Source of the DNA: Pontiellaceae bacterium B1224
GTDB lineage: Bacteria; Verrucomicrobiota; Kiritimatiellia; Kiritimatiellales; Pontiellaceae
Direction: 5' to 3'
DNA: 64,000 bases
Assembly: GCA_029432815.1 (NCBI GenBank)
Contig: JAROBA010000009.1
Location: 62,001 to 126,000 of the forward strand
Under the pieces are notes generated by a model, which did not search any database, had not been told where the DNA came from, and saw nothing but the letters and a program-made list of their open reading frames with translations. A program made the translations under genes and the position numbers. Shown in pieces: positions 10,534 to 58,038 of the stretch. The stretch's first letter is position 1; each line of letters begins with the position of its first letter.

Positions 10534-10535
10534 GA

Positions 10536-14845: not shown

Positions 14846-14853
14846 AAACATCC

Positions 14854-18489: not shown

Positions 18490-18530
18490 AACCCTTCCTT
18501 CATATAATCGTGTGTTCATAAATTCTGTTC

Positions 18531-20078: not shown

Positions 20079-20088
20079 TTTTATAACC

Positions 20089-22284: not shown

Positions 22285-22307
22285 GTTTCCTCTGCCTTAC
22301 GTATGGT

Positions 22308-33817: not shown

Positions 33818-33886
33818 TATTACATCCAAATTTCAATATCCATGGATACGGCAAAACAGTTTGATCGGGATACACCGACGGAGTTT

Positions 33887-33957: not shown

Positions 33958-34695
33958 TTATATCATGAAAAGGCGGCGAATGAACAGAATACCACCGCCG
34001 AACGCTGCAACCAGCCCCAGCGTTACCGGTTCTGGGATAACTCTGATCGTTTCGCCCGTCACTTCGAACACGTCGCCGAAGGTCGCCGGGGTTGCACCGT
34101 TGTATGTAAGGTCGCCAGCAATAACCAGTCCCTGGTAATAGCTCAAATCCGCACCGGTGATAGTGAGAGTGCCATCGCTCGAACCGCCACCGATCTTGTC
34201 GGCGAAGTCAATCGAACCATTGCCGGCACCACTACCGCCGGCGGCATCAAAACTTGGCAGCTGGCCAAGGACGGCTGCACCTCCACGAATAGTGAGAAGA
34301 CCGTCAGCTCCATCCCGTCCGATGAAGAGTGTTGCCCCTGGATCAGCACTAAAACTTCCGGACAGAAGGTCAATGGATCCACTTCCTGTGCCCCCGTTGC
34401 CGATAAGCAGGGAGTTGGGCCCATTGAAAACCAGTAAGCCCCCGTCAATGGTTATCGAGCTTGTGTTTGATTGCCCTACCGTCATATTAGCGGTCTCGCT
34501 GCTGCCCTGAACATCAATGGAGCCTCCCAGGCCTACCGTTATTGATGTGCCGGTCTGCTGCCATCTGTCACCGGCCCCCACAACAACCGCGGTGGTAATA
34601 TTGGTGCCGTCGGCCAGCGTGGCTCCATAATTAACAGCCTGAGCGGCCCCCGCCACCAGCAGACCTGCGCCGAATGCGCATAGTGCTTTTTTCAT
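33958..34695 (-). CDS. PEP-CTERM protein with autotransporter-like repeats
   Basis: The ATG at 34695 (MKKALC...) has AGGAG at normal spacing and starts a signal peptide ending AQA; the frame runs further upstream without support. Of 245 residues the middle carries Gly/Ser-rich repeats of the form G-x-L-L-I-G-N-G-G-T-G-S-G-S and L-F-I-G-R-D-G, as in beta-helical passenger domains. It ends in I-P-E-P-V-T-L-G-L, a hydrophobic helix and R-R-L-F-M-I, a PEP-CTERM sorting signal recognised by an exosortase and associated with surface or exopolysaccharide material. It is paralogous to the N-terminal third of the adjacent 34761 gene. Confidence 0.88.
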   Translation of the reverse strand: MKKALCAFGAGLLVAGAAQAVNYGATLADGTNITTAVVVGAGDRWQQTGTSITVGLGGSIDVQGSSETANMTVGQSNTSSITIDGGLLVFNGPNSLLIGNGGTGSGSIDLLSGSFSADPGATLFIGRDGADGLLTIRGGAAVLGQLPSFDAAGGSGAGNGSIDFADKIGGGSSDGTLTITGADLSYYQGLVIAGDLTYNGATPATFGDVFEVTGETIRVIPEPVTLGLVAAFGGGILFIRRLFMI

Positions 34696-34760: not shown

Positions 34761-36719
34761 TCAGTATCGCAGCTCGTAGAACAGGACGGTCTCGCTGCCG
34801 ATGGAATTGGTAACCGGCGAACTCACACCTGATTCCGCCATGCCCCATTGGCCGTATACGAGGTTTGCATTGGTCCACACATCGCACGCCGTTCCGCTTT
34901 CCCAGCTCAACACGACCTGACCGCCAGAAATGACGCCCATGGCAACGTCTCCGATCTCCTTGAGCACCGTGGGCGTTCCGAGCACATCGAACTCGCGGTA
35001 AGCAATCACATCATTCCCGCTTGCGCCATCGAGGTATTCATCGAAGTTGCTGAAAGTGATGGCCTTGACGCCGGTGGCAATCACATCGTTGCCGGCCTTG
35101 GGGGTCATATAGACAGCCGTCCAAGAATTGACCGGCGAGGTATTGGGCTCGTAGGTCCCGCTGCTGAGAAGCTCTGTGCTGTCGTCCATATAGGTTACGG
35201 TAACGTCATAGCCCTGATTGGCACGACCACCGGCTCCGGTGTTCCAGGCCGCATAGGTGTTGATGTTGGTGATGTCGTAACCCAGCGTGTTGACGGACGT
35301 ATCGAACGTGATCGTAAATGAATCTTCCGCTTCCAGCAGAACCTGATCGCCGTCGTTTGCAGAAGTACCGGTGGCACCATCATTGATATTGGCCCGCTGA
35401 TCGACGACAATCCCTCCGCTGTTGTCAACGAGGCTCAGGAACGAGGCCTGGTTCGTGTTGGCCAGATCGTCGGTGCTGTACGGCGTAAACGAAGCCGGGA
35501 AAGCATCCGTGGCCGTAGTCCCTGATTTCTGGGTAGAAATGTCCACCAGCCGCACCGGAACCACATCGATCACAAACGTGTTGGTTGCACTGAACCCGTT
35601 GGAGTCTACCACCACCACTTCGGATGTATAGGTGCCGACCGCCATATAGGTGTTAGAAACAACCACGCCGCTGTCCGAGTTTCCATCGCCGAACGTCCAT
35701 GAATAACTGGAGATCGATCCCTCACCGGAAGGTATACTTGCTGAAGCATCGAAAACCACTTCCAGCGGAACTTCCCCCGATGCGGGCGTTGCCGTTGCTA
35801 CGAGTTCCAGCGGTTGTAATTCAGCCGTAATCTCCACGGAATTGCTGGCGGTATTCCCCAGATCATCCATGATGGTAAGCCACGCGGTATAGGTATTGGT
35901 GGCCGCATAGGTGTTGGTGACCACCGCTCCACTGGCCGTATTGCCGTCACCGAAATCCCATGCATAGCTGACAATGGTTCCGCCGGAGATACTGTTGGTT
36001 CCATTAAACACCACTTCCAACGGAGCATAGCCGGAGCTCACAGAAGACTCGATAGCGGCTGCGGTTTCCGGCGGAGGGAGCGCACTGAGAGTTTCTCCGA
36101 CTACTGAGAACACCTGACTGAAAGCATAAAGACTGTTGTCCCCATTGTACGTAAGGTCGCCACCAAGATAGAGCGATTCATAATAGGCATAATCCGCCTC
36201 CGTGATGGTCAGGGTGCCATCGCTGGTTCCGCCACCGATCTTGTCGGCAAAATCAATAGATCCAACCCCGGCGTTATTGCCCGCATCAAAACTCGGTTTG
36301 GTACTGATAGAAGCCGCCCCTCCTCTAATCCTGAGAACCCCCGCAGCTCTATCGCGTCCGATAAAAAATGTACCGGTTAATGTAGACGTTAAAGATCCTG
36401 ACCGAAGATCTATTATGCCATTCCCTCCACTACCATTCCCGAGAAGCATAGCATGACTGCCTGCAAAGCTCACAGGGCCGCCATCAATGATCAGCGTAGA
36501 CACTTTCACATGACCTATCGTCACATTTTTAGTCGTCGAGGTGACCTCGACCGATCCGGCATTGGTAACCGTCAAGGTCACCGCGTTCTGCTGGTAATCC
36601 GGACCAATGATTGCCGTATCAATCACTGAATTCGTTGTATATGATGCCACAATGTTGGCCTGAACGGCTCCCGCGGCCATCACCAATCCCGCCATCAACA
36701 CCTTAATTTTTCGATTCAT
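34761..36719 (-). CDS. Exported protein with passenger repeats, two PKD domains and a GGRANQGY module
   Basis: 652 residues with a signal peptide ending VQA. Residues about 25-215 are paralogous to the 33958 protein (shared S-I-D-F-A-D-K-I-G-G-G and D-G-T-L-T-I-T). Two PKD domains follow (about 225-300 and 310-385), each with W-D/T-F-G-D-G-N. Then comes a roughly 190-residue module (about 390-590; A-W-N-T-G-A-G-G-R-A-N-Q-G-Y and R-E-F-D-V-L-G-T-P) also found in three other proteins of the window. The end is F-Y-E-L-R-Y without PEP-CTERM. It is transcribed divergently from the discoidin kinase gene, 186 bp away. A surface glycan-binding role is inferred. Confidence 0.82.
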   Translation of the reverse strand: MNRKIKVLMAGLVMAAGAVQANIVASYTTNSVIDTAIIGPDYQQNAVTLTVTNAGSVEVTSTTKNVTIGHVKVSTLIIDGGPVSFAGSHAMLLGNGSGGNGIIDLRSGSLTSTLTGTFFIGRDRAAGVLRIRGGAASISTKPSFDAGNNAGVGSIDFADKIGGGTSDGTLTITEADYAYYESLYLGGDLTYNGDNSLYAFSQVFSVVGETLSALPPPETAAAIESSVSSGYAPLEVVFNGTNSISGGTIVSYAWDFGDGNTASGAVVTNTYAATNTYTAWLTIMDDLGNTASNSVEITAELQPLELVATATPASGEVPLEVVFDASASIPSGEGSISSYSWTFGDGNSDSGVVVSNTYMAVGTYTSEVVVVDSNGFSATNTFVIDVVPVRLVDISTQKSGTTATDAFPASFTPYSTDDLANTNQASFLSLVDNSGGIVVDQRANINDGATGTSANDGDQVLLEAEDSFTITFDTSVNTLGYDITNINTYAAWNTGAGGRANQGYDVTVTYMDDSTELLSSGTYEPNTSPVNSWTAVYMTPKAGNDVIATGVKAITFSNFDEYLDGASGNDVIAYREFDVLGTPTVLKEIGDVAMGVISGGQVVLSWESGTACDVWTNANLVYGQWGMAESGVSSPVTNSIGSETVLFYELRY

Positions 36720-36905
36720 CCCTTTATCTCCATTTTATCCTATGTTCCGTTCACCGCCTGGCAAGTGAAGCCGACTCTTTTCCTATTTTTCACCTGTACA
36801 GCATGCCAGAACCAAAAATCCTGCCCATCCACCGTTTGGTAGATGCCAGCACGCCTGTTTTCCCGTACCATTTGCTGAATCATGAGTTCATGCTATAAGG
36901 ATGTT
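36720..36905. promoter_or_regulatory. Divergent promoter region of the first discoidin kinase
   Basis: This 186-bp region must hold promoters for the PKD gene (-) and the kinase gene (+). TTCAC and GTGAA form an imperfectly spaced inverted repeat near 36749-36768, a possible regulator site. No clear -35/-10 pair could be assigned with confidence. Confidence 0.4.
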
Positions 36906-38876
36906 ATGCGACGAATTGCAGTCATAGCCGTGTCATTGCTGCTGGGAGACCTGCCCCAGGCCTTGGCCGACCCGGGGAACGCCCATCTGGAAAAACGGTC
37001 CCTGCCGGAACTGGAACAGCGGTTGGCTGATACCGACGCCGAGCTAGAACAGCTCGCCAGCTATACTCTGCGCGGGGGCACCGGCTCGCTGGGCTATCGA
37101 TCAAAGACACATAACGATCCCAACGTACAGGAGTGGGTTAGAATCGAGCTGGGCGAAGAGGTTCCGGTCGAGCAGATCGTTTTGGTGCCGGCCCTGTGGC
37201 GGGCTGCCAACGACGGCCTTCTGGCCGAGGGATTCCCGACCGCGTTCCGCATTCTTGCGGGAACAGATCAGACGACCCATGTGGTGGCCTCCTTTTCCGA
37301 AGAAGACAGTTTATTGCCCCGCATCGCTCCGCTGGCGGCAACCTTTTCCCCCGTCCAGGCATCCTGGGTCGGAATCGAAACCACGACCCTTTCGCCCATG
37401 ATCCGCGGCGACCTGCACATCCTTGAGCTCTCCGAAGTCATGGTGTTCAGCGGACAGGAAAATCTGGCCCTCAACCGCCCCGTCAGCGCATCAAGCTTCG
37501 ACCGGAGCACCGGGAATCCAAGATTCCTGACCGACGGATTCACGCCCTATCTGATGGATGCCGCCCTGGGCCCTCAGAGCCAGACCAAGCTCATTCGGGT
37601 TGCGCAGCAAGCGCCGCCGCCCTATCTTGAAATTGATCTTCAAACCCCCGGCCCGGTCAACCAGATCAACCTGCACACGGCCGACGTGGCCCTCTCCATC
37701 CCGATGCAGCGTCTGAGCACCTGGGCGGTACCCCGCCATGTCCGCATCACCGGAGCCAACCGCACCGACTTTTCGGATGAAACGGTCCTGTGCGAATACC
37801 GACAGGAATCGCTCTACGACAACGGCCCCATCATCATGCGCCGCTTCCCGGAAATCACCTGCCGCTATATCCGCATTGCAATCCTTGATCCCCGTCCGAT
37901 CGTTTCAGACCAGGAAACGGTACATGAGATCGCTTTCACGGAAATCGAAGTGTTCTCCGGCGGGCTGAATATGGCGCGTGGTGCGCCGGTCACCCACAGC
38001 CGCGGCCTGAAACCGTATGATCAGGCGCTGGCACGAATCACCGACGGGCTCAACTACTATGGAGAGATCCTGCCCATACGGGATTGGATGAACCAGTTGG
38101 CGCGCCGTCACGACCTTGAAACCGGACGCCCCCTCATTGTTGCCGAGATGAATGTCCGCTATACGCGCCAAAAAACCAACCTGCACCGTTTGGCCTGGCT
38201 CGCGGCCATACTCGGGGTTGGCATTGCCTTCGCCATCCTGGTCGAACGCTTCATCCACCTGCGCCAGCTCACCCGGATGAAAGAGCAGTTTGCCGCCGAC
38301 CTGCACGACGAACTGGGTGCCAACCTGCATACCATCGGGCTGCTGAGCGACCTCGCCGAGGAAACGCGCGAAAACCCGGAGGAGCAAAACGAATATCTTC
38401 ATCGCATCCGAACCGTGACGGAGCGATCCGGAAAGGCCATGCGCAATGTGGTCGACCTGCATGAGTCCAGCGACCTGTTTGTGGGATTAAGAGCGGACAT
38501 GCAGCGGGCGGCGGAACGCATCGTCACCCGGTTGGAACACGATCTTGCAATCGAGGGAGAGGAACTCCTTTCCCGGCTGAAGCCGCGCCAACGGATCGGT
38601 CTGTTTCTTTTCTACAAGGAATGCCTGATCAACATCTGCCGCCATTCCGGTGCCACCCGGCTCAGTACCCGCCTGACAGCCAGTCCTGAAGAAGTCCGCC
38701 TGCTGATCACCGACAATGGTCGGGGATTGCCGGATTCCATGCAAAACGGAATTCCTCCATCACTCAAACGCCGGGCAAAACTGCTCAGGGCAAAACTGAC
38801 CGTCGAAAGTCCCGCGGAAGGGGGAACACGCATCACGTTAACACTCAAACCCCGAAAATTAGGATTTATCAAATGA
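36906..38876 (+). CDS. Sensor histidine kinase with discoidin-like sensor domains (copy 1)
   Basis: The ATG at 36906 follows AAGGA and begins a signal peptide (M-R-R-I-A-V...). The 656-residue protein has two discoidin/F5-8C-like beta-sandwich domains predicted outside the membrane (about 55-183 and 186-352). Each ends with an E-V-M-V-F-S-G or E-I-E-V-F-S-G strand, a hallmark of such domains. A single membrane helix (428-450) leads to a HisKA_3 domain with F-A-A-D-L-H-D-E-L-G (His467) and a HATPase domain (N-I-C-R-H-S-G-A, D-N-G-R-G-L-P). This is the NarX/DegS class that signals to LuxR-type regulators. Discoidin domains often bind glycans, so polysaccharide sensing is inferred. The stop overlaps the regulator ATG (ATGA). 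Confidence 0.88.
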   Translation: MRRIAVIAVSLLLGDLPQALADPGNAHLEKRSLPELEQRLADTDAELEQLASYTLRGGTGSLGYRSKTHNDPNVQEWVRIELGEEVPVEQIVLVPALWRAANDGLLAEGFPTAFRILAGTDQTTHVVASFSEEDSLLPRIAPLAATFSPVQASWVGIETTTLSPMIRGDLHILELSEVMVFSGQENLALNRPVSASSFDRSTGNPRFLTDGFTPYLMDAALGPQSQTKLIRVAQQAPPPYLEIDLQTPGPVNQINLHTADVALSIPMQRLSTWAVPRHVRITGANRTDFSDETVLCEYRQESLYDNGPIIMRRFPEITCRYIRIAILDPRPIVSDQETVHEIAFTEIEVFSGGLNMARGAPVTHSRGLKPYDQALARITDGLNYYGEILPIRDWMNQLARRHDLETGRPLIVAEMNVRYTRQKTNLHRLAWLAAILGVGIAFAILVERFIHLRQLTRMKEQFAADLHDELGANLHTIGLLSDLAEETRENPEEQNEYLHRIRTVTERSGKAMRNVVDLHESSDLFVGLRADMQRAAERIVTRLEHDLAIEGEELLSRLKPRQRIGLFLFYKECLINICRHSGATRLSTRLTASPEEVRLLITDNGRGLPDSMQNGIPPSLKRRAKLLRAKLTVESPAEGGTRITLTLKPRKLGFIK

Positions 38877-39532
38877 ATATCAACGTCATGCTGGTGGAAG
38901 ACAGCCCGGAATACCGGGACGTCATAGAAATCGCCATAAATAAAGAAACGAACATGGTGTTATCGGGAACGTTCGGGGCGGCGGAAGTGGCGCTGCGGAG
39001 CCTGCAGGATCCTGTACAAAGCACTAAACCGGATATCATCCTGCTTGATCTGAACCTCCCCGGCATGTCCGGGCTTGATGCCATTCCCTGGATTGGAAAA
39101 TACGCCCCTGCCGCCAAAATCATCATCCTTACGCAGTCCAACCGGGAAGCCGACGTCTTGCAGGCGATCTCACAAGGAGCTTCCGGCTATCTGCTGAAAT
39201 CCTCCACCGTGAAGCAGATCAAGGAAGGCATCCGCAGTATCATGAACGGAAATGCCCTGTTAGACGGCGGCGTGGCCAGATACATCACAGATGCAATAAA
39301 AACAAAATCAGCAAAGGTTCCGCTTGAGAAACCACTCTCCGAACGGGAAATGGAAATCCTCACGTTACTCGGAGACGGACTGGTTAAGAAGGAAATCGCC
39401 AACCGGCTTGACATCAGCTTTGGCACTGTAGCTACCCACATCCGCCACATCTACGAAAAGCTCCATGTGGAAAACGCCCCCGCCGCCATCTCAAAAGCCT
39501 ACAAAAGCGGCATTCTCCCTTCCGGGGATTAG
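38873..39532 (+). CDS. NarL/LuxR-family response regulator (copy 1)
   Basis: 219 residues. The receiver domain has E9/D10, phospho-acceptor D59 in L-L-D-L-N-L-P-G, T-Q-S-N and K-S-S-T. The C-terminal LuxR helix-turn-helix (about 150-215) contains L-S-E-R-E-M-E-I-L and the recognition region F-G-T-V-A-T-H-I-R-H-I-Y-E-K-L. It is overlapped by 4 bp with the kinase and is clearly its partner. It is a close paralogue of the 50999 regulator. Confidence 0.93.
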   Translation: MNINVMLVEDSPEYRDVIEIAINKETNMVLSGTFGAAEVALRSLQDPVQSTKPDIILLDLNLPGMSGLDAIPWIGKYAPAAKIIILTQSNREADVLQAISQGASGYLLKSSTVKQIKEGIRSIMNGNALLDGGVARYITDAIKTKSAKVPLEKPLSEREMEILTLLGDGLVKKEIANRLDISFGTVATHIRHIYEKLHVENAPAAISKAYKSGILPSGD

Positions 39533-39963
39533 CACCTTTCACAAACCAGATGACTTTCCCCTACAGTAAGGACGAAACGGGCAATGCTTCATTGGCTGCG
39601 TCATAGATCCCACTAAGCCGAGCATATGGACTCATGCTTCCAGCTCTCTCTATAAACCTAGATCCGGGAATGAAAATGAAGGAAACGGTATTTTATCCAA
39701 TGATACCGGCATCAAACCCAAAACACGCTTCACACCCACAGGGTTCGTCTTGTTGTTTCATTCATGTTCACCGTTTTCACCACATCCACTGCGCTTTTAA
39801 ACCCTAGAGGTAGGCAACTACATCTGCGGGTTTAAAATCTTGTGGCTGCAGTAAACTTGGCCATTCCCGAATCTAGGATAAAAGCCGTTTTTTTGACCTG
39901 CTCGCAATGTGCAGGATTTATCGCACAGGCCACCACGTGGCCTATAAGGGCGCAGAAAAAACC
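39533..39963. other. Non-coding gap between converging genes
   Basis: This 431-bp stretch lies between the 3' ends of the regulator (+) and the SHD1 gene (-). No convincing gene is present. Its one clear feature is a long hairpin at 39795-39837. Confidence 0.6.
39795..39837. other. Long two-part hairpin in the convergent gap
   Basis: Outer arms TTTTAAACCC (39795-39804) and GGGTTTAAAA (39828-39837) pair perfectly. Inside, AGAGGTAG and CTACATCT pair at seven of eight positions around a GCAA tetraloop. The total is about 17 base pairs with one small internal bulge. It may end transcripts from both sides, though no T run follows, or it may be a small structured RNA or relic repeat. Confidence 0.5.
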
Positions 39964-41850
39964 TTATTCATTTCTCATCCAGTCCGGGCGATCCATCACG
40001 GTGGGCCGGGGCGGGGTAACACGCTCCCCTGCTCGATTAAAATGCCTGCTCACCGGGAGCCTTTTGAGCTCCGTCAGAATATCGAACAGAAAATTACTGG
40101 AGGTCTTATGCTGGATAATCTTTCCGCGCGAATCGGACATCGTAATCAAAAATCCACCATATTTCACACCGCGCATTGGAGCGGTGTCGCGGGTCGCCAT
40201 TCGATCCACCCGGACGGGTTCACCATAGAATTCGTGAGATTTATTATTCGAATCGTCCGGCGTAAACGTCGTTGACTCCCGAGCCAGCAAGACATAGTTA
40301 TCCCCGTCCACCTCTTCTCCAATCGCAAAATATTGAAGGGTGAGCGGATAGTTGTAGTCGCCGGTTCCTTTTTGCTTAATCTGCAAACCGAATGTGTACT
40401 CAAAGAGTTGCTGGTTAAGCACCGCCGACGACCAGGGCGGAGGATCCGGCGGTTCGATCTGTTTGCTTTTTTTAGTAAAATTGATATCGAAATCAGGAGG
40501 GGTTGCCAGATTGACATAGTGCTGATCGGCCTCGGAAAGCTGCGTGTAAGGAACCTTATGCTGCTTTCCGTTTTCTGTTTTAACAACCACATAGCTGGCC
40601 ATCTTCGTCATAAACTCAGCTTCAAATGTATTGTCATCTGCTGTGGTCCAGAGGCGCATGAGTTCCTCCTCAACCGGTTCTGCAGCCGGCGGTTCCGGCT
40701 CAACCGTGACGGCAGCAGCTCGGGGTTTACTCTTATAGTCGCGAAATACCGGGCCGTTTGTTACCGAGGCATCGCCGGGGTCCAGTCTGTACCAGATGTC
40801 CTCTGCCATGGTCAGCGTAGGCTCTTCCGTCTTGAACATGGGTAGCTTCGGGCCCAGTCGATAGGGGTTCGTTGGATACTCTTCGCCCTTCACTTCCACG
40901 ACCAGCATATAACAGGAAATGGCCCCGTTAACCTCTCCGAAGATCACATCCATATCCACCGGTTCGCCGGCTTTGAGGGTAATCCAATCCCCGATGACGG
41001 CATATTGGTTGCCCAGCACAAAGCGTCTTGAGTCCGAAGCATCCGACTGCCACAAAGAAGCGAACGCATCCTCATTGGCCCCGGGCCAGCAGGCGATCAG
41101 ATTAATCTTCCCGTCCACCCGCACCGCAAACAATTCATCTCCGTGCCCCCGGAACCGGAATGTAATGTCCTCGGGATAAACGAGCTTCCCTTTGTAGTGC
41201 AGCATAAAAAGACCCGCCGCAGTACCGGACTGGCCAAACGCTTCCGGCGCCAGGTTCGCAGGAAGCGGAGGAATCATGAAATGGGTAGTATACAGCTTTT
41301 TAGGTGCCCGGTAATATTTTGCCCAGACAGAAGGTTTCCAACCTCTCACCATAAACTCTTTGACGTCATGCCGGAACTCTTCCGTTGAATACGGATAAAG
41401 GCTCCCATCGCGGCGGCGCTTCATATCATAAAAAGTGCCTTCAAAATCGTTCCCGATACTCATGCCTCCGCCAAACGGAGTGACGTCACTCAAATCCGGC
41501 GTTAAATCGAATCCGGCATACCCACCACCGGTGCCAACCCCATCGCCGATCCCACTCATTTCCGGCAGATAAATCTCCGGCATATCGGCGCGCTGCACCT
41601 TAGTGACGATTCGTTCTGAAGATCTGGGCTTGGAATCTTTTTTTACCTTCACCTTCGGCTTTTTGAGTTTCATTTTCGGGCGTTCAACCGGCTTCGGCGG
41701 AACAAACTTTTTTTCCTCCTTATTCACCACATTGAAAACCACCAGCAATCCGGCCAGCATAAATACAGCCGCATGCACCACCAGACTGATGACCAATCCA
41801 CTGGGAGCTCCCTTATTAATCTTCTGACTCTTTTTACTTTGCTGCGTCAT
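39964..41850 (-). CDS. Membrane-anchored protein with TonB-like N-terminus, PA14-like and SHD1 domains
   Basis: 628 residues; AGGAG precedes the ATG. A single helix near residues 18-40 (L-V-I-S-L-V-V-H-A-A-V-F) is followed by a Pro/Lys-rich stretch (P-P-K-P-V-E-R-P-K-M-K-L-K-K-P), which is the layout of TonB-type energy couplers. The central region (about 130-330; F-E-G-T-F-Y-D-M-K ... F-R-G-H-G-D-E-L-F-A-V-R-V-D-G) resembles PA14-like lectin domains. Around 400-455 is an SHD1-type domain (L-W-T-T-A-D-D-N-T-F-E-A-E-F ... V-P-Y-T-Q-L-S-E-A-D). The C-terminal 150 residues are unrecognised. No ExbB/ExbD genes are adjacent, so a TonB role is uncertain. Confidence 0.7.
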   Translation of the reverse strand: MTQQSKKSQKINKGAPSGLVISLVVHAAVFMLAGLLVVFNVVNKEEKKFVPPKPVERPKMKLKKPKVKVKKDSKPRSSERIVTKVQRADMPEIYLPEMSGIGDGVGTGGGYAGFDLTPDLSDVTPFGGGMSIGNDFEGTFYDMKRRRDGSLYPYSTEEFRHDVKEFMVRGWKPSVWAKYYRAPKKLYTTHFMIPPLPANLAPEAFGQSGTAAGLFMLHYKGKLVYPEDITFRFRGHGDELFAVRVDGKINLIACWPGANEDAFASLWQSDASDSRRFVLGNQYAVIGDWITLKAGEPVDMDVIFGEVNGAISCYMLVVEVKGEEYPTNPYRLGPKLPMFKTEEPTLTMAEDIWYRLDPGDASVTNGPVFRDYKSKPRAAAVTVEPEPPAAEPVEEELMRLWTTADDNTFEAEFMTKMASYVVVKTENGKQHKVPYTQLSEADQHYVNLATPPDFDINFTKKSKQIEPPDPPPWSSAVLNQQLFEYTFGLQIKQKGTGDYNYPLTLQYFAIGEEVDGDNYVLLARESTTFTPDDSNNKSHEFYGEPVRVDRMATRDTAPMRGVKYGGFLITMSDSRGKIIQHKTSSNFLFDILTELKRLPVSRHFNRAGERVTPPRPTVMDRPDWMRNE

Positions 41851-42094
41851 CTCTACTCCTCGTCTGAAACAGGTTTAGTTTTTATACTTTCCGTGAAAAT
41901 GATTCACTGGATACCCGTCTAAGTCTGAATAAATAACGCTCCCACAACATCCGCTTGGACAGATTAAAGTCTGCCGAAAAGTTATATCTCATTGCCCGAA
42001 AGATGTCTAGTCCACCATTTGGCTGACACTCAGATTCTAAACCGGCTCCCGGCCTCACCAGAACAACCTTCCTGACGCCGGTATATTTTTCAAA

Positions 42095-43781
42095 TTACGG
42101 AAGCCAGCGTACACGGTAAAAACCGGCACTGTTCGTTGCGGGCATTGTCAGCTCCAGCGGAGACGTCTCCAGCGAAATAAAATTGGTTATGGTTTTCCAG
42201 AGACTGGAATTCATCAGGCTGGGGCTCCACTCCAGCAAATATTCCGCACCGACAACGCCGGAAAACTGGGTATAGAAAAACCCATTGGAAGCCATCGTTC
42301 CCCCCGCAACAAACGCCGGAATATATTCATCCCCCAACAGGGTCGGCGTACCGAAGATATCGAACTCGCGCCCGATCACGACGCCGTTTGCATTGGCATT
42401 ATGGGTGATATCGAATGTCACGGCTTTGACGCCCGAGCCAAGTACACGGCCGGGCGCATTTGTAAACGAAACGGTGGTCCAGTACGACGCCGGATTGTTC
42501 GGTTCCCAGTGCTCCGGCCCGGCCAGCGTGGCGGCTGAACCATCCATGAAAGTGAGGATGATTTCATAGCCCTGATTGGAGCGGCCGCCGCTGGCCGGAT
42601 TCCATCCGAAACACGTACGTATCCCGGTCAGGTCGTATCCCCGTCTATTCACCGACGTGTCAAAAGTTACAGTGATGGAGTTATCACTCATCATTCTGAC
42701 ATTACTGGTTTCTCCTGTATTGTCTGCATCCGTACCGACACTTCCATTAAACAGCTCAGCATGCTGGGTTGCGGCTTCATCGCCTCCTGTCGCTGAGCTT
42801 TCAAAATAGTGAGTTTGCGCTAAATCGCCGTCGCTGCATGCAGGAGCTGTATCTGCCTGGCTGGAGGAAACCTGATAATTTATATTGGGAACCTGCCCCA
42901 CATGCACAGAGTCCAGACTCATGGTTTTGGCCTCGGCATTGACCACCCGCAATGTATGAAGGCCTTTATCCAGGCTGTTGTGGCTATAAACCGTTTCCTG
43001 ATAGAGCGTACTGCCGCTGTAGCAGCTGACCGTCTGCCGGAACACGCCATCGATGTAGACATCAACATTGCCCATGTTGCTGGCTTTCATTGATTCGAAG
43101 GAGACGTCCGTACCATAGAACGTGATTTCAAACGCATCCCCGGCCGTAGTGGTGGTTTGAATATCACCATTGTAGCAGCTCGTAATTTCCTGCGTTGACC
43201 AGGAGCCGGTATAAACCACCCCTGCTGTATCGTTCAGATGCTCATAGCCATCGGTCTTCACAAAAGAAAAAGATTCCGGATGCTGATTGCGGTAGATGCT
43301 GCAGTCGACTGTTTCTCCTCCGGCAATGGAGTTATACAGCAGCCAGAAGCTTTGTTTGGTGGTTACATCGGTTCCGTTGACCGAACGAATCAAGTCATAT
43401 TGCTCGAATCCCTGCAGCTGCGCATAACTGCCATACGGAAGCGACTCGAAGAAAACTCCATTCAAATCCGGAGCTCCCAGCACCGACTGAATGGATCCAT
43501 CATAAATGCTGGAAATAAACCCGCCCATCAGAGGCTCGGCATCCGAGTTCGGAGACCGTCCTGCATCATAGCTGATGGGATCCGGTTCCGGAGCCCCCGG
43601 TTTTCCGAACTGGTCCATCGGGAAGTTCACAAAACCCAGTGCCAGTGCCGGGGAGTTTGTTGCAACGGTATAATCGTTGGATCCCGGATTAATAAACAGC
43701 GGATTGGCAATCACCGAATTTTCGTCGCTCGCCGTCCAGCTGAAAGAATTAACAGTTACATCATCGTCCCCGTTAAAAAAA
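42095..43781 (-). CDS. Distal part of frameshifted beta-helix gene: PDZ, binding domain and GGRANQGY module
   Basis: This is the continuation of the 43773-45683 reading frame after a one-base shift in a T7 run (43775-43781). The first residues (D-Y-T-V-A-T-N-S-P-A-L-A-L-G-F-V-N-F-P-M-D-Q-F-G) match the C-terminal helix segment of the neighbouring helix proteins, so the two halves are one ancestral gene. Then follow a PDZ-like domain (G-V-F-F-E-S-L ... I-R-S-V-N-G-T-D-V), a small carbohydrate-binding-like domain, the roughly 190-residue GGRANQGY module and a C-terminal end F-Y-R-V-R-W-L-P. There is no plausible independent start or ribosome site, so as written this part would not be made without frameshifting or slippage. 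Confidence 0.7.
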
Positions 43782-45683
43782 CAGATTGTAATCCGTGGTG
43801 GCCTCCTCCCCGGCCCCGCCGACACTGATGGGATGATAGGCCGAAGGGTTGACAATGATATTATTGAAAAGTTCATCCCGGCAGGTGTCGTACCAGACAT
43901 GAAGATCAAGGCCGCGGTTAATCATGATGTTGTTATAAACCTTCCGACTGAATCCTTCGCGCAGCTTAACGGACGTATTCAGAATGAGGTTGTTATAGAT
44001 CTCATAATTGCTCGATCCATCATCGAGATCGATGCCGAACTCCGTGGGTTCATCGTAGTGAAAACGATTGTTGCGAATATGCGTCGTTTTCCATGCTTCC
44101 AGAAAAGCGTAAGGCCGCTTAATTGCCCCGTCTCCTCCGTTGTGGTTGTAGCCGCCAATGGAGTAAAAGCGGTCGCGCCCCCAGGAGTTAAATGGGCCAT
44201 GATCGTTGGTTTCGCGAATGCAGTCAAAAACATCATTAAACTCAATAATATGGCCGCCCCACGCCCCGTCGCAGATATTGATGCCTGAACGCGGACTGCT
44301 GTGAATCGTGTTATGACTAACCGTAATACTTTCCGCCAAAAACAGATTTACACCGGCGGTCTGTTTTTCAAATCGCCCCATATTAAACATATGGTTATAG
44401 CTGATCGTAATATCCTTCGGATAATCCTCGGTTTTGGGGCCGATCTCCGTATTGATGTCTATATCCGCAGCGTCGGTAATATAATCGTCCCACTCATTTG
44501 TATCCCATAATGCGACCTTGCTACCGCAAACGTTGACGCAGGTTGCCCCGTTGTCGAGGAACTCATTATTCGTGACAAGGTGGTTTCTATTGTAGGCACT
44601 GAAGAAAACTCCGTTACCTCCGATGCGGTCAAAAACTGAATCTGAGACCGTCACGTTTTCCGCATCCTGTATGAAGATGGCACCGGCCCGTGCCAGACGC
44701 CAGTCGCTGCGATTCATCGGCTCATACTCGCGCGTAAACAGGGTGCGGTGGGTGCCGGTGAAGGCGAAATTTCTGAAGGTGAGATATTTAACTTTTGTTT
44801 CGGCTGTCCCCACCACGCGAATTAGCTCTTCAAGCGACGCGGCTTCAACGATTGCGGTCGACAGATCAACGCCGTTCGGCGGATAGAAATATAGTTTTCC
44901 ATCCGATTCGTCGTAGAACCATTCGCCCTCGGCGTCGAGTTCTTCAAAAATATTTTCTACCATACGGTAGGTACTGTGAACACCGGAACCGCGGTTGTTA
45001 TCGCCCACCCAATCCAGATTCAGTGAACTGCCGCTCTTCCCTGTAATCCGATAGGAATTTCCGCCCCACCGGCTTCCGTGCAAACCACGATAAAAGCCTC
45101 CCGCCGGATCAGACCAGCTGTTTACTTTGGTGCTGCCGATGGCATCACTTGCATAGCCGTTGAGAATGGCTGTATCCTCATCGTAGTTCGGATATCGCGC
45201 CATCACCTGAAGATCGTTGTTTATAAACAGCATGTCGAAATCGAGCCCCGAGCCAACCGTTGCCACCTGAATATTTCCGGAATGGGTGGTCCATGTCGGA
45301 GACAACGGAATGGCACCACTGATGATCACGGTTTCATTGGAATAACCGGAATACGTAACCGGAACAGAAGCAGAGCCTGAATCGGTGGTTCCGAATTCAA
45401 GTGCTGAACCTAAATAATAGGTCCCTCCCCTTACCCAGACATGGATCGGATCAATGGCTGAAGGCAACGCGGCACGTACGGCCAACTGTGCTTTTTCCAA
45501 GGTTTGGAAAGGAGCATTCATGCTGCCCGCATGGGAGTCGTTTCCCGTCGTTGCCACATAGTAGTCTAGCGCAAACACATTCAATCCAAATAGCAAGGCG
45601 CCGACAACAGCCGCGCTTTTTCCCACCCTCTTCCAGACATTGGAACACGGACCAAAAAATTTACTTTTTTTATTCCACATCAT
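43773..45683 (-). CDS. Secreted right-handed beta-helix protein, proximal part (GH141-like)
   Basis: 636 residues in frame before a premature TAA at a T7 run. The signal peptide and helix cap (Y-Y-V-A-T-T-G-N-D-S-H-A-G) are followed by G-G-T-Y-Y-L-G-S-A-L, F-N-S-W-G-R-D-R-F and D-L-D-D-G-S-S-N-Y-E-I-Y-N-N-L, the same motif set as the 10536 and 14854 proteins. The ATG at 45680 is an alternative start with better spacing from AGGA. Removing one T at 43775-43781 joins this frame to the distal part, giving about 1195 residues. Three copies (two perfect, one with a mismatch) of the TTCCAA palindrome lie within about 220 bp of the start. Confidence 0.82.
   Translation of the reverse strand: MMWNKKSKFFGPCSNVWKRVGKSAAVVGALLFGLNVFALDYYVATTGNDSHAGSMNAPFQTLEKAQLAVRAALPSAIDPIHVWVRGGTYYLGSALEFGTTDSGSASVPVTYSGYSNETVIISGAIPLSPTWTTHSGNIQVATVGSGLDFDMLFINNDLQVMARYPNYDEDTAILNGYASDAIGSTKVNSWSDPAGGFYRGLHGSRWGGNSYRITGKSGSSLNLDWVGDNNRGSGVHSTYRMVENIFEELDAEGEWFYDESDGKLYFYPPNGVDLSTAIVEAASLEELIRVVGTAETKVKYLTFRNFAFTGTHRTLFTREYEPMNRSDWRLARAGAIFIQDAENVTVSDSVFDRIGGNGVFFSAYNRNHLVTNNEFLDNGATCVNVCGSKVALWDTNEWDDYITDAADIDINTEIGPKTEDYPKDITISYNHMFNMGRFEKQTAGVNLFLAESITVSHNTIHSSPRSGINICDGAWGGHIIEFNDVFDCIRETNDHGPFNSWGRDRFYSIGGYNHNGGDGAIKRPYAFLEAWKTTHIRNNRFHYDEPTEFGIDLDDGSSNYEIYNNLILNTSVKLREGFSRKVYNNIMINRGLDLHVWYDTCRDELFNNIIVNPSAYHPISVGGAGEEATTDYNLFF
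45495..45509. repeat. TTCCAA-N3-TTGGAA palindrome inside the frameshifted beta-helix gene
   Basis: TTCCAA GGT TTGGAA without mismatch, about 175 bp into the gene. It encodes F-Q-T-L-E, a different reading frame of the palindrome from most other in-gene copies. A near-copy with one mismatch is at 45631-45645. Confidence 0.7.
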
Positions 45684-45701
45684 TTTTCCTCTTACTGTTC
45701 A

Positions 45702-45718
45702 TTTCCAACGATTGGAAA
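45702..45718. repeat. TTCCAA-N3-TTGGAA palindrome, intergenic copy 4
   Basis: TTTCCAA CGA TTGGAAA with perfect 7-base arms, 18 bp upstream of the frameshifted beta-helix gene, close enough to overlap its leader. Confidence 0.8.
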
Positions 45719-45898
45719 CCATGCTTTTTTTCTTTGAGGCGGAGACCTATATTAAAAAAAACGATCTGACTTTCGGCACGAACGCACGACAAACGTTAAA
45801 TACCAGCCGCCAGATACATGCGGTATATTGTATATGATCACGAGTCGGCATCAATAATTCGAAAGAATCAGGTCGAGTCTATGATCATATTTGAAGTT

Positions 45899-45932
45899 AA
45901 AAAAAACACTGCGCCCCAAACGGACCGCAGTG
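45899..45932 (-). terminator. Rho-independent terminator of the PEP-CTERM gene
   Basis: On the minus strand CACTGCG pairs with CGCAGTG (45907-45913 and 45926-45932) around a 12-base loop, directly followed by a run of eight T. It lies 23 bp after the stop of the 45956 gene. Confidence 0.85.
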
Positions 45933-45955
45933 CTTACGAAAACAATTCATTGAGC

Positions 45956-46675
45956 TTAGATCATGAATCTGCGGCGGATGAACAGGATTCCCCCTCCGCA
46001 TGCGGTGATCAAACCCAGCGTAGCCGGTTCCGGCACAGCGACACCGACTATATCAAACTCGGTATAGGTCGCAGTTCCGCCAGCATTTGCACCTGTAAGG
46101 AAATCAAACTTAACCGATTTCACTCCGGTTCCGATCATACCGGCATCATCTGAAATTTTCACTTCCGTCCAGACATTGACCTCTCCGTTTTCATCGGCAG
46201 CAGCTACAGTGTTGGCATAATGCGTTCCGTTGGTAATTTCCTCGAACGAATCATCCATATAAATAAAGGTCAGCGTGTATTCCTGGTCCGAACGGCCTCC
46301 GCTCCCCGTATTCCAGGCAGCATAGGTATTAATTCCAGAAATATTATATCCCAATGTGTTCACCGAGGTATCAAGATTGATAGTAATCGATCCTGTGTTG
46401 AACTGCGCCTCAAAGCCTACGCCAACCCCGGCAACTCCATCAAAAAGACGACTCGTTGTATCGCCTCGCCCACCTGTATCTATATCGGAAGCACTCAGAA
46501 ACGTTGCCTGATCCGAATTAGCGAGGTCAGTGGCACTAATGGGGGTAAATGTTCCAGGGAATGGATCAGTTTCCAACGTCCCGGAACCTTGACTGTCAAT
46601 TATGAGTGCAGCACTTGATACGAATGGCAATGCCAGCGCAACAAATGAAGCAACTATTGTCGTCCTTTTTTTCAT
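45956..46675 (-). CDS. PEP-CTERM protein consisting of a GGRANQGY module
   Basis: 239 residues with a signal peptide (about 1-22). Almost the whole mature protein is the roughly 190-residue module shared with the 34761, 42095 and 46781 proteins (A-W-N-T-G-S-G-G-R-S-D-Q-E-Y and T-E-F-D-I-V-G-V). It ends with V-P-E-P-A-T-L-G-L, a hydrophobic helix and R-R-R-F-M-I, a PEP-CTERM signal nearly identical to that of the 33958 protein. It is therefore the minimal form of the module with a surface-sorting tail, flanked by its own terminator and by that of the next gene. Confidence 0.87.
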   Translation of the reverse strand: MKKRTTIVASFVALALPFVSSAALIIDSQGSGTLETDPFPGTFTPISATDLANSDQATFLSASDIDTGGRGDTTSRLFDGVAGVGVGFEAQFNTGSITINLDTSVNTLGYNISGINTYAAWNTGSGGRSDQEYTLTFIYMDDSFEEITNGTHYANTVAAADENGEVNVWTEVKISDDAGMIGTGVKSVKFDFLTGANAGGTATYTEFDIVGVAVPEPATLGLITACGGGILFIRRRFMI

Positions 46676-46731
46676 TCTTTATTTCTCCTTTGTATTTAGC
46701 TTTTCCTTCATAAAAATATTTTTTATCAAAC

Positions 46732-46765
46732 GACCTCCTCTCCGCTAAAGGCGGAAAAGGAGGTC
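46732..46765 (-). terminator. Terminator of the LamG/PKD gene
   Basis: GACCTCCT (46732-46739) pairs with AGGAGGTC (46758-46765). Inside it TCCGC (46741-46745) pairs with GCGGA (46751-46755), giving a long GC-rich stem. On the minus strand a T/A-rich stretch follows. Confidence 0.8.
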
Positions 46766-46780
46766 TGGAGCAGAGATGAG

Positions 46781-48793
46781 CTACTCAAAAATAACCCGAT
46801 AAAACTCAGCTGCCTGGTTTTTCTGAGGCAGAACGATTTTAGTCTGAGGAGGGGTTCCCACCACATTGGTGAACGTGCTCCATGTTCCGACGGCCAGGTT
46901 CAGCGTGCTCTGAACGCTGTACTGATAGGACGAATCGGATGCCCATGAGAGCGAGGTTCCGCCATCTGCCAACTCAAGTACAATCACATCCGGAACCGGT
47001 TGGCCGGATGGAACTCCGAGAATATCAATTTCGCGCCCCACCACAACACCACCTGCATTCGCATTGAAGAAATTATCAAAGGTAACGGATTTAACGTTTT
47101 TGGCCATCGCCAACCCGTTTGTTTCCACAAAGGTCACCTTGGTCCAGTAGTTCGTATCCCCATCGTTTGGTGCCCAATGCTCAGAATCGGCCAGCACCGC
47201 TTCGCTACCATCAGCATAGGTCACCCGAATTCCATAGCCCTGATTCGCGCGACCGCCGCCGCCCGGGTTCCAACCGGCAATGGAGGAAATTTCCGTAATG
47301 TCATACCCGTAGGTATTCACCGAAACGTCAAAATTAAGCGTCACAGAGCTGTTTGCATCCCATCGCACCTCGCCCGCTCCGCTAATGCTTCCATCCGTAT
47401 TGCCGATGCTGCCGTCGAACAGGTTGGTCGTGCTGGTGGCTCCATTAAGCACACCTAAAGCACTGAGAAACTGGGTCTGGGCCAGGTCGTCCGTAAGGAA
47501 GGAAGGCAGCGTGGCAATATCAAAGCCTTCTGCCGTCACAACCAGATCTGCACCTACATATTGCGACACTTCGATAACAACCGAATTTGTATCGATGAGT
47601 CCATTGGAATCAACCACCACAACGGCTGCCGTATAAACACCGGACAGCATATAGGTGTTGGTGGCGTTCACTCCGCTGGCCATATTTCCATCACCAAAAT
47701 CCCAGTCATAGGAAACAATGCTCGTGCTTGAGGTACTGGCAGAAGCGTCGAACGCAACCTCCAGTGGATATTCACCGACAGTGGGTGTTGCCGAGACAGC
47801 GGCCGTAACAAAATGAGCAACCGAGATATCAACAGAACTGGAACCCGAGCTTCCGTTGGCATCGATAACCTCTAGTGAGGCCGTATATTCGCCGGTAGCC
47901 GAATACGTGTTGGTTACAATCATACCGCTGGTGGTGGTGCCATCGCCAAAGTCCCAGTTATAGGAAACAATATTCGTGGAGGACGCACTGCTCGAACCAT
48001 CAAAAATCACCTCAAGCGGTGGCGGACCACCCAACGTGGACGCGGAAATGATGGCCGATGTTTTCATAGTAAAAAGTTCCGTAATTTCAGCTCCGGACAG
48101 CTCGTGGTCATACACCCGAAAATCATCCAGGAGTCCATGGTAGTAAGCGGTCGAGCCCCCCGAACTGCCGATAAAAAAGGAAGTGATACCCGTCATAACA
48201 TTGGTTTGACCGGTTCCGCTTGCATAAGGAGTGGAGTCACCGTTGACATACATGGCCATGGTTCCATCGGTCGCATTTTTGGTGAATACCCAATGATTCC
48301 ATTGCCCCCACAGCGTGGAATAATCGCCAACAGGAACGCCCTTGGTTATGCGATTACGCGGTGTTCCACTCCTGTTTGCATCGAAGTAGATCGTCGGTCC
48401 GCTCCACGGGAAATGACAGTTCAGCAGCCGACTGTTCCCCGTAAAGCCGGAAAAGGCGTTTTGCTGCACTTTCTGACTGGGATCGCCATAGCACCAAAAG
48501 GCGATACTTAATTCATTCGACACCGTTCCCAGAACATTGCCAATTGTAACAGAAGTCGGTATGCCATTTGAAATGGCAGTGGGCGAACCATCAAAATAGA
48601 GGGCTCCGCTACCGATCGCGGCATTATTAGTCCAAACCGGATTGAAGATAACTCCATCATAGTTACCGGTTGAATCGGCGGCCGTCGAACCACTGCCTTC
48701 TTCAAACTCCCAATGACCGACCAGTGCGGCCTGACTGATACCGGCAACCAATACGCCGGCAAATAACAACATAATTTTCCTGCTCACTTTCAT
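46781..48793 (-). CDS. Exported LamG-like lectin with two PKD domains and a GGRANQGY module
   Basis: The ATG at 48793 (MKVSRK...) has GGAG upstream and starts a signal peptide ending SQA; the frame extends to 48904 without support. The 670-residue protein has a LamG/concanavalin-like domain (about 22-230; G-H-W-E-F-E-E-G-S-G), two PKD domains (about 245-320 and 330-405, with W-D-F-G-D-G) and the shared module (about 410-600; G-W-N-P-G-G-G-G-R-A-N-Q-G-Y, R-E-I-D-I-L-G-V-P). It ends F-Y-R-V-I-F-E, without PEP-CTERM. It is divergent from the second discoidin kinase, mirroring the 34761 gene and the first kinase. Confidence 0.85.
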   Translation of the reverse strand: MKVSRKIMLLFAGVLVAGISQAALVGHWEFEEGSGSTAADSTGNYDGVIFNPVWTNNAAIGSGALYFDGSPTAISNGIPTSVTIGNVLGTVSNELSIAFWCYGDPSQKVQQNAFSGFTGNSRLLNCHFPWSGPTIYFDANRSGTPRNRITKGVPVGDYSTLWGQWNHWVFTKNATDGTMAMYVNGDSTPYASGTGQTNVMTGITSFFIGSSGGSTAYYHGLLDDFRVYDHELSGAEITELFTMKTSAIISASTLGGPPPLEVIFDGSSSASSTNIVSYNWDFGDGTTTSGMIVTNTYSATGEYTASLEVIDANGSSGSSSVDISVAHFVTAAVSATPTVGEYPLEVAFDASASTSSTSIVSYDWDFGDGNMASGVNATNTYMLSGVYTAAVVVVDSNGLIDTNSVVIEVSQYVGADLVVTAEGFDIATLPSFLTDDLAQTQFLSALGVLNGATSTTNLFDGSIGNTDGSISGAGEVRWDANSSVTLNFDVSVNTYGYDITEISSIAGWNPGGGGRANQGYGIRVTYADGSEAVLADSEHWAPNDGDTNYWTKVTFVETNGLAMAKNVKSVTFDNFFNANAGGVVVGREIDILGVPSGQPVPDVIVLELADGGTSLSWASDSSYQYSVQSTLNLAVGTWSTFTNVVGTPPQTKIVLPQKNQAAEFYRVIFE

Positions 48794-50812: not shown

Positions 50813-51002
50813 GCTGAAGATTATTGATAACGGCCACGGACTTCCGGATATGGCGTCGCATACGGTTCCCAAATCACTCCGTCGCCGGGCCCGGCTCATG
50901 GGAGCCAAAGTGGAAGTGGAAAATGTGAGTTCAGGCGGAACCAGCATTCTGCTGACATTTAAACCCGGAAACAAGCTGCTTCCCTTCAGGAGAAAATCAT
51001 GA
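50788..51002 (+). pseudogene. Displaced C-terminal ATPase segment of the second discoidin kinase
   Basis: In the shifted frame this segment reads L-K-I-I-D-N-G-H-G-L-P-D-M-A-S ... L-R-R-R-A-R-L-M-G-A-K and ends in TGA overlapping the regulator ATG. It aligns with the end of the 36906 kinase. The stop/start overlap is the same ATGA arrangement as in copy 1, so it is the true 3' end of the kinase gene. Gaining two bases (one CA unit) at 50780-50787, or losing one base, restores one frame. Confidence 0.75.
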
Positions 51003-51646
51003 ATGCCAAAACCAGAATCATGCTCATTGAGGATCACCCGAAATATCGCACGGTCATAGAAATGGCCATGAAAAATGAGGAAGATATGGTCCTCTGCTCC
51101 ATGTTCGGAGCAGCCGAAATTGCGATTAGAAACATCAAAGAAGGGAATAATAAACCGGATCTGATTCTGCTCGACCTTAACCTCCCGGGAATCAGTGGAA
51201 TTGAAGCCATCCCGTTGATTACCTCTCTGATCCCGGAAACGAAAATCATCATCCTGACTCAGTCGAATCACGAGGCCGATGTCCTGAGCGCAATCCAGCA
51301 GGGAGCTGACGGATACCTCTTGAAATCATCCACGGTTAAGAAGATTAAAGAAGCCGTCCGTACCGTGATGAGCGGAGGTGCCTCGCTCGATGGAAATGTT
51401 GCACAGTTTATCCTACAGCAGCTTCAGAAAAAATCCACAATCCAAACAGACAAACCACTCTCGGAACGGGAACTCCAGATTCTGGCACTCCTGGCTGAAG
51501 GCCTGCTCAAAAAAGAAATCAGTAACCGCCTCAACATCAGCTACGGCAGCGTTGCCACCTACATCCGCCGGATCTACGAAAAGCTCAATGTCCTCAACGC
51601 AGCACAGGCCGTGGGCAAAGCGCATCGTTTAGGGCTTCTCGATTAA
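50999..51646 (+). CDS. NarL/LuxR-family response regulator (copy 2)
   Basis: 215 residues. The receiver domain has E11/D12 and phospho-acceptor D59 in L-L-D-L-N-L-P-G; the LuxR domain has L-S-E-R-E-L-Q-I-L-A-L-L and Y-G-S-V-A-T-Y-I-R-R-I-Y-E-K-L. It is closely similar to the 38873 regulator along its whole length, including the recognition helix, so the two may bind related sites. It remains intact although its kinase is frameshifted; phosphate could come from the first kinase (inference). Confidence 0.93.
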   Translation: MNAKTRIMLIEDHPKYRTVIEMAMKNEEDMVLCSMFGAAEIAIRNIKEGNNKPDLILLDLNLPGISGIEAIPLITSLIPETKIIILTQSNHEADVLSAIQQGADGYLLKSSTVKKIKEAVRTVMSGGASLDGNVAQFILQQLQKKSTIQTDKPLSERELQILALLAEGLLKKEISNRLNISYGSVATYIRRIYEKLNVLNAAQAVGKAHRLGLLD

Positions 51647-57958: not shown

Positions 57959-58038
57959 CGGCGCCCCCTCTTTAAACCTCTAAAGAGAGCAATATCCATA
58001 CCATCCACAGCACCCATTCACGATCGCCGGAACCGGGA

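Follow-up and report, generated by a model that had tools for sequence, protein, structure and literature searches.

A putative carbohydrate-binding module with a predicted discoidin-like fold in four exported proteins of a Pontiellaceae bacterium

Introduction

What does a domain that recurs in four exported proteins of a marine-type Pontiellaceae bacterium do, and does it belong to a family that is already described? A preliminary description of the window (the whole 64-kb stretch of DNA analysed here) had proposed that the proteins at 34761, 42095, 45956 and 46781 have in common a module that looks like a discoidin-type binding domain and may be an undescribed glycan-binding family. If the module binds glycans, it would stand for a binding family not yet catalogued, with algal or sulfated polysaccharides as its ligands, and the group of bacteria that hosts it is very rich in sulfatases.

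Results

All four ORFs are present, each on the minus strand, and the common module was confirmed in them by motifs and by pairwise BLASTP. On the basis of motifs, pairwise identity and profile, the module extends over 34950..35537 in protein A, 42338..42880 in ORF B, 46031..46609 in protein C and 46997..47551 in protein D (all minus strand). The copies are 180-196 residues long (first given as roughly 190). Pairwise identities between the four copies were 38-47%, with scores of 84-148 bits, compared with at most 22.7 bits for shuffled controls (50 shuffles per pair). A scan of the whole window found the three motifs originally proposed in every copy: the first, of the W-N-x-x-x-G-G-R-x-x-Q-x-Y type, reads WNTGAGGRANQGY, WNPASGGRSNQGY, WNTGSGGRSDQEY and WNPGGGGRANQGY, the second is VK[SA][VI]xF, and the third is [RT]E[FI]D[IV][LVF]G. 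When a module profile was searched against the window, the same four proteins were recovered and no fifth copy was found. The module has a near-invariant signature, GYDI-x2-I-x2-Y-x-GW...GR-x2-Q-x-Y, and in the module alignment (protein C numbering) W121 is conserved in 57/61 sequences, Q131 in 57/62, R128 in 55/62 and E206 in 61/62.

The four carriers differ in what accompanies the module. Protein A (34761..36719, minus strand, 652 aa) contains a signal peptide, an N-terminal domain that we call X, two PKD domains, the module and a C-terminal tail, while protein D (46781..48793, minus strand; its ORF reaches 48904 and the ATG at 48793 is the likely start) has a signal peptide, LamG (PF13385), two PKD domains, the module and a tail. 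Protein C (45956..46675, minus strand, 239 aa) consists of a signal peptide, judged by eye, the module and PEP-CTERM. Its assignment as a PEP-CTERM protein rests on this signal peptide, on a TIGR02595 score of 20.3 bits (cut-off 16) and on an exosortase encoded in the genome (PF09721, E 1.8e-52); against Pfam PF07589 it scored 18.6, under the cut-off of 20.7. ORF B (42095..43909, minus strand, 604 aa) carries PDZ-like and CE2_N-like regions, both scoring under the Pfam cut-off, followed by the module and a tail. In relatives, the counterparts of ORF B and of the preceding ORF (43773..45683, minus strand), whose product is a right-handed beta-helix protein (PF13229, with GH141_M scoring under its cut-off), are fused in a single ORF of 1214-1396 aa. 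The window gene is therefore split by a frame change in a stretch of seven T around 43776-43785, with ORF B as its downstream half. Accordingly, the layouts proposed earlier stand for the version with only signal peptide and PEP-CTERM, for PKD and for LamG, but the beta-helix lies outside the 42095 ORF. Likewise, "different anchors" holds for the one protein with PEP-CTERM, but the C-termini of the other three are formed by similar tails of 60-75 residues ('FYRV/FYEL'-type), a type of tail also present on other exported proteins of the genome. The window is abundant in sulfatases and beta-helix proteins.

We then asked how the module relates to catalogued families. No Pfam or NCBIfam family was reached over the module by any member, and no PDB sequence matched it at E<=10, so that the proposal of an undescribed family is borne out within the scope of Pfam-A, NCBIfam and PDB sequences. 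The F5/8 type C domain gave no Pfam match at E<=1 in the four window proteins; among 62 module sequences the best matches of this type were PF22633 at E 0.0033 and PF00754 at E 0.014 (one sequence each), and none reached the curated Pfam cut-offs for PF00754 and PF22633. Using a comparison profile built from 17 sequences of this genome's own F5/8C domains, a four-sequence module profile reached an hhalign probability of 11% across 112 columns, more than the PKD and LamG controls did, whereas larger module profiles gave 0.2-0.6%, and with the 62-member profile the PKD control outscored F5/8C. Profile comparison did not establish homology to F5/8C, and PKD and LamG controls gave similar noise.

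The fold prediction gave a different picture. The AF2 model of the module (mean pLDDT 81.3, pTM 0.79) is a discoidin/CBM32-like beta-sandwich, and Foldseek against the PDB returned a best E of 9e-5 and 28 matches at E<=1e-3, many of which are CBM32. The top VIA Z, 14.2, was to HSPC034/IFT25 (1tvg, 131 residues, rmsd 2.4), and the Z to CBM32 4a42_B was 12.6 (123 residues, rmsd 2.5); in a second model, made from distant relatives only, 4a42_B was the top row (Z 12.8). Several CBM32 structures had Z of 10.5-12.8 to the module models, and IFT25, SUN (SUN2) and APC10/DOC1 ranked among or above them. Matches in a viral structure library were mostly to F5/8C-like, tail and unnamed proteins; they superposed poorly and were set aside. 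The module is thus predicted to adopt the galactose-binding-like (discoidin/CBM32) beta-sandwich fold, and the term "discoidin-type" is sustained at the level of fold, through comparison of two AlphaFold models with known structures, but not by sequence profile.

There are nine copies of the module in this genome, and the relatives found so far are in Verrucomicrobiota and Planctomycetes. Among 24 relatives scanned with Pfam, five carry a catalytic family (GH43 in two, an alginate lyase with CBM6, a GH78 rhamnosidase and a SASA esterase), a further four a right-handed beta-helix and ten PKD; the remainder have PATR (two), Big_12 with F5/8C (two) or nothing (one). Tandem copies occur on GH43 and beta-helix proteins. 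As is general for carbohydrate-binding modules, a discrete domain is here appended to carbohydrate-active enzymes (GH43, GH78, alginate lyase, SASA esterase) and to beta-helix proteins.

Most genes for PKD-bearing module proteins lie beside a kinase gene. A histidine kinase with an exported F5/8C-like sensor, HK1 (36882..38876, plus strand), is divergent to protein A and is followed by a NarL/LuxR-type response regulator, RR1 (38873..39532, plus strand). A second kinase, HK2 (49007..50812, plus strand), is divergent to protein D; its frame changes near 50780, and the homologous C-terminus runs on in another frame to about 50999, where RR2 begins (50999..51646, plus strand), a response regulator homologous to those of other module loci. 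A divergent F5/8C-sensor kinase was found at 9/11 PKD-bearing module ORFs versus 0/12 that are PKD-free. Such an association raises the possibility that the PKD-stalked module acts as a co-receptor, capturing glycan and helping the kinase, whose own exported regions are F5/8C-like, to switch the locus on. We regard this as unlikely, since the divergence can be accounted for by a common promoter region, without contact, and none of 14 other HK1-type kinase regions fetched from this genome carries the module. It follows from these 14 regions that the kinase family does not need the module, and a requirement for it was rejected. The co-receptor proposal is compatible with carbohydrate binding and would cover one use of the module.

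In all nine kinase-linked PKD module proteins, a PEP-CTERM gene lies immediately downstream. The one adjoining protein A (33958..34695, minus strand; ORF to 34887, with an internal ATG near 34695 as likely start) encodes a protein that aligns with the N-terminal 219 residues of A at 47% identity (E 3e-50), and in five of the nine kinase-linked pairs the N-terminal domain X of the PKD protein is homologous (47-61%) to the adjacent PEP-CTERM protein. Three more cases show this twin layout without the module, with X homology of 70-87%. To see whether N-terminal domains are shared merely because one type of X is widespread, we compared ten proteins with a set of 41 PEP-CTERM-like ORFs, at least one of them spurious, drawn from 40 regions that include 41/47 TIGR02595 matches. 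Five of the ten share X with some PEP-CTERM protein; the adjacent one was the top match for four of these and, for protein A, the second by 3 bits. Four (the L050, L053, L158 and L159 proteins) have no N-terminal domain in common with any of the 41 ORFs, and protein D and its PEP-CTERM neighbour have only the module in common. Gene order and X homology are the observed basis for a putative two-protein surface system, with the module as its ligand-binding end: an X-PEP-CTERM protein displayed on the cell surface would be docked, through X-X contact, by an X-PKD-PKD-module-tail protein bearing the glycan-binding module as an exchangeable part, the divergent F5/8C-sensor kinase and NarL regulator would tune the pair to one glycan, and the kinase pair would be a Verrucomicrobiota counterpart of PrsK/PrsR. 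We consider this composite doubtful.

Discussion

Because the module is attached to several kinds of carbohydrate-active enzymes, glycan binding is a well-motivated, putative function, and we propose that the module is probably a non-catalytic carbohydrate-binding domain of discoidin/CBM32 fold, from a family that Pfam and NCBIfam lack. In an enzyme, the module would act as a tether between the catalytic domain and its polysaccharide; in PKD-stalked and PEP-CTERM proteins, a binding site of the same kind would be exposed on the cell surface or in the exopolymer. The conserved loop W121-(N122)-R128-Q131 of protein C, between strands 110-120 and 131-139, would form or support the putative site. 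Counting against this proposal, the conserved W, R and Q may instead be structural in role, most PKD, PATR and PEP-CTERM carriers are without an enzyme, and the catalytic partners are very diverse, a pattern that suits a general tether or adhesive function better than a single ligand.

The predicted fold also fits two other explanations. One is that the module, rather than forming a separate family, is just a highly divergent member of F5/8 type C (PF00754), for which the common fold and the four-sequence profile speak; considering that the larger profiles gave 0.2-0.6% and that the best match among 62 members was at E 0.0033, we find it improbable. Like CBM32 and F5/8C domains (PF00754, PF22633), the module is a predicted beta-sandwich that serves as an accessory domain on carbohydrate-active enzymes, but it differs from them in having no significant sequence or profile match, a near-invariant signature of its own and a length of about 180 residues versus 127 in PF00754. 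The other is that the module binds protein, or itself, and docks enzymes and stalked proteins on a surface layer with no sugar binding. HSPC034/IFT25, SUN and APC10/DOC1 domains are eukaryotic and protein-binding, with no exported-enzyme context, and since they have the fold predicted for the module, with IFT25 and SUN2 high in the structure comparison, they count against the carbohydrate-binding proposal; furthermore, a PEP-CTERM protein and the neighbouring PKD protein and enzyme all carry the module, and module-module contact could join them. However, CBM32 is equally frequent among the structure matches, and sugar-binding modules are typically found as here, attached to enzymes such as GH43, GH78, alginate lyase and esterase. 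Protein binding is therefore, in our judgment, a rather unlikely role, and we prefer carbohydrate binding.

Several features of the module loci resemble known systems. Passages of Haft et al. (2006; PMC1569441) describe a PEP-CTERM/exosortase system with a linked kinase and regulator, PrsK/PrsR, and the module loci are similar in that a kinase and a regulator are linked to PEP-CTERM proteins, in a genome that encodes exosortase. They differ in that their regulator is NarL-type and their kinase has F5/8C-like sensor domains, whereas PrsR is sigma-54 interacting; those passages do not list PrsK/PrsR for Verrucomicrobium spinosum. The pattern in which twin X proteins and PEP-CTERM are linked to a dedicated sensor kinase could offer a handle on both the role and the regulation of PEP-CTERM proteins outside Proteobacteria. 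Among the PubMed Central open papers listed by literature searches, no title or abstract describes the module or the twin arrangement. For Pontiella agarivorans, the text of PMC10880615 has no occurrence of PKD or PEP-CTERM and its passages do not mention the module; they place glycoside hydrolases and sulfatases of polysaccharide-degradation loci near HisKA_3 kinases and response regulators, a layout like that of the module loci.

Identification of the module

The preliminary description had placed a common module, marked by three motifs, in four exported proteins. Their ORFs, all on the minus strand, encode the PKD proteins A (34761..36719) and D (46781..48793, also with LamG), protein C (45956..46675), consisting of a signal peptide, the module and PEP-CTERM, and protein B (42095..43909), which comes from the downstream part of a beta-helix gene that is split here. 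Each ORF, with all three motifs, was confirmed at the stated position. The module spans 180-196 residues, with pairwise identity of 38-47% among the four copies and pairwise scores of 84-148 bits, compared with at most 22.7 bits in shuffled sequences (50 per pair). When the six frames of the window were searched with a profile built from 65 distinct module stretches, exactly these four ORFs matched.

The suggestion that the family might be undescribed was supported within Pfam-A, NCBIfam and PDB sequences, which gave no family match over the module. For the four window proteins, neither Pfam-A nor NCBIfam gave an above-cut-off match over it; Pfam-A detected PKD and LamG, with PEP-CTERM, PDZ and CE2_N below threshold. 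Scanning 62 module sequences singly produced scattered weak matches only (best, F5/8C-type, E 0.0033), and no PDB chain matched the module profile at E 10. An hhalign comparison of the module with F5/8C returned probabilities of 0.2%, 0.6% and 11% for three profile versions, and with the 62-sequence profile a PKD control outscored F5/8C; homology to F5/8C was not established by these three comparisons. Since F5/8C scores low and the window and distant-relative profiles match each other at 99.9%, the family appears to be distinct from F5/8C by these tests. The module is real and, in these libraries, uncatalogued.

Predicted fold and domain context

The earlier guess of a discoidin-type fold was supported by structure comparison of two predicted models. 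An AlphaFold2 model of protein C, built from a 62-sequence alignment (mean pLDDT 81.3, pTM 0.79), retrieved 28 PDB chains at E≤1e-3 with Foldseek, including IFT25, many CBM32 domains, SUN2 and APC10. In structure alignments it matched HSPC034/IFT25 (1tvg) with Z 14.2 and rmsd 2.4 over 131, CBM32 4a42_B with Z 12.6, and many other CBM32s and SUN domains with Z 11-12. A second, weaker model (30 distant sequences, with a Mariniblastus protein first; pLDDT 72) had the same fold, with 4a42_B as its top match (Z 12.8). The fold is therefore predicted to be discoidin/CBM32-like.

Among 24 relative proteins scanned in Pfam (L-numbers denote loci in this genome or relatives), five joined the module to catalytic families: GH43 (L037, L039), alginate lyase with CBM6 (L050, own genome), GH78 rhamnosidase (L066) and SASA esterase (L069). 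A right-handed beta-helix is present in L037, together with its GH43, and in four further relatives (L057, L055, L038, L046). PKD domains occur in ten, four of which also have LamG (L040, L008, L009, L041), PATR in two (L044, L067), and Big_12 with an F5/8C-type domain in two (L052, L043); the one protein lacking a Pfam match, L042, comes from the downstream part of another beta-helix gene that is split. The module is also repeatedly found as a standalone protein of 237-256 aa (L013, L020, L021, L026, L047, L049, L060). Sulfatases made up six of ten window neighbour ORFs scanned, and beta-helix proteins are also abundant. This domain context is as expected for a carbohydrate-binding module, which is the most likely role of the family.

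In multidomain proteins of the Pontiellaceae type, the module takes a C-terminal position and in most cases precedes a tail that ends in FYRV, FYEL or a similar motif; L067, L065 and L069 have it close to the N-terminus. The tail, of 60-75 residues, is common to A, B, D and L139:4940-7186, otherwise different exported proteins, and is possibly a sorting signal. Elsewhere in the window, the minus strand at 5701-23891 carries a run of six sulfatases, between which lie beta-helix proteins and a fusion of beta-helix, PDZ and GH43 (14857-18678). Two very large exported proteins are encoded at 28979-33829 and 52829-57979; Big_9 is present in both, accompanied by F5/8C, Glyco_hydro_cc and ricin-B in one and by a GHL15 match in the other.

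Distribution and frame breaks

The genome carries nine module copies, four in the window and five on three other contigs. Matches were found in 20 of 288 class genomes (four-sequence profile, E≤1e-3), where several same-genus genomes lacked the module, and in 25 of 387 phylum genomes (62-sequence profile, E≤1e-5), a survey that scored eight candidates per genome, making its copy numbers lower bounds. Two peptide patterns, run against genome contigs, picked out 13 loci, each of which belongs to Kiritimatiellales/Pontiellaceae, to another group of Verrucomicrobia or to Planctomycetes (Phycisphaera, Phycisphaeraceae, Mariniblastus).

In relatives, the beta-helix, a PDZ/CE2_N-like region and the module form a single ORF of 1214-1396 aa. 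The window gene is split at 43773-43909 (minus) by a change of frame at a T7 run near 43776-43785. The histidine kinase HK2 (49007..50812, plus), divergent to D, changes frame near 50780, its last 70 residues continuing in another frame up to its response regulator gene, RR2. The two breaks lie less than 10 kb apart and may reflect either errors in the assembly or genuine inactivation.

Paired proteins beside a sensor kinase

More surprising than the module is the layout around it, in which twin proteins sharing a domain, one ending in PEP-CTERM and one carrying PKD and the module, lie beside a sensor kinase. Neighbourhoods were compared for 23 module ORFs, those of the window together with those in 14 regions (L050-L063) fetched from three same-genus genomes. 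A PKD motif was present in 11 and absent from 12; a homologue of HK1, the kinase divergent to A (36882..38876, plus), lay immediately upstream and divergent in 9/11 PKD-bearing ORFs (exceptions L053, L055) vs 0/12 PKD-free ones.

A small PEP-CTERM protein gene lies downstream of all nine kinase-paired genes, ∼0.8 kb off in L059. In five (A, L051, L059, L061, L062), the PKD protein's N-terminal domain, X, also makes up nearly the whole PEP-CTERM protein (33958..34695, minus, for A), at 47-61% identity. Two pairs (D with C; L060) have the module itself in common; direct BLAST between the L060 proteins gave only E 0.052, and the module profile finds the module in both. The L050 and L057 pairs have no part in common. 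Twins also occur without the module, in L139 (69.5%), L156 (78%) and L157 (87%), the L157 PKD protein having a second X copy, 40% identical, after its PKD domain. At L157:2795-6346, three adjacent ORFs carry X at 67-87% identity, and the PKD ORF adds the second, divergent X.

When ten proteins were compared with 41 PEP-CTERM-like ORFs recovered from the window's own genome (at least one spurious), the neighbour ranked first in four of five shared-X cases and just behind the best match in the remaining one; the other five proteins shared no X with any of the 41.

The genome also encodes an exosortase. In Haft et al. (PMC1569441), PrsK/PrsR are described for Proteobacteria, with none listed for Verrucomicrobium spinosum, and further regulators are said to remain to be found. 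The kinase-regulator pairs described here are candidates for such PEP-CTERM regulators.

HK1, HK2 and three other HK1-type kinases gave HisKA_3 and F5/8C-type matches, some below cut-off. HK1 had 19 match rows in its own genome, and the module was absent from all 14 regions fetched around other HK1-type kinases there; ten ORFs scanned from these regions included one sulfatase, one GH28 and one GH95. Many loci are therefore served by this kinase family, with PKD-module proteins as one type of neighbour among others. HisKA_3 kinases near sulfatases and hydrolases have already been reported for Pontiella agarivorans (PMC10880615). TonB-like-looking proteins, with an N-terminal membrane helix, a K/P-rich stretch and SHD1 as their sole Pfam match, are encoded near module or kinase genes at 39964-41850, L055:3666-4871 and L131:6192-8000.
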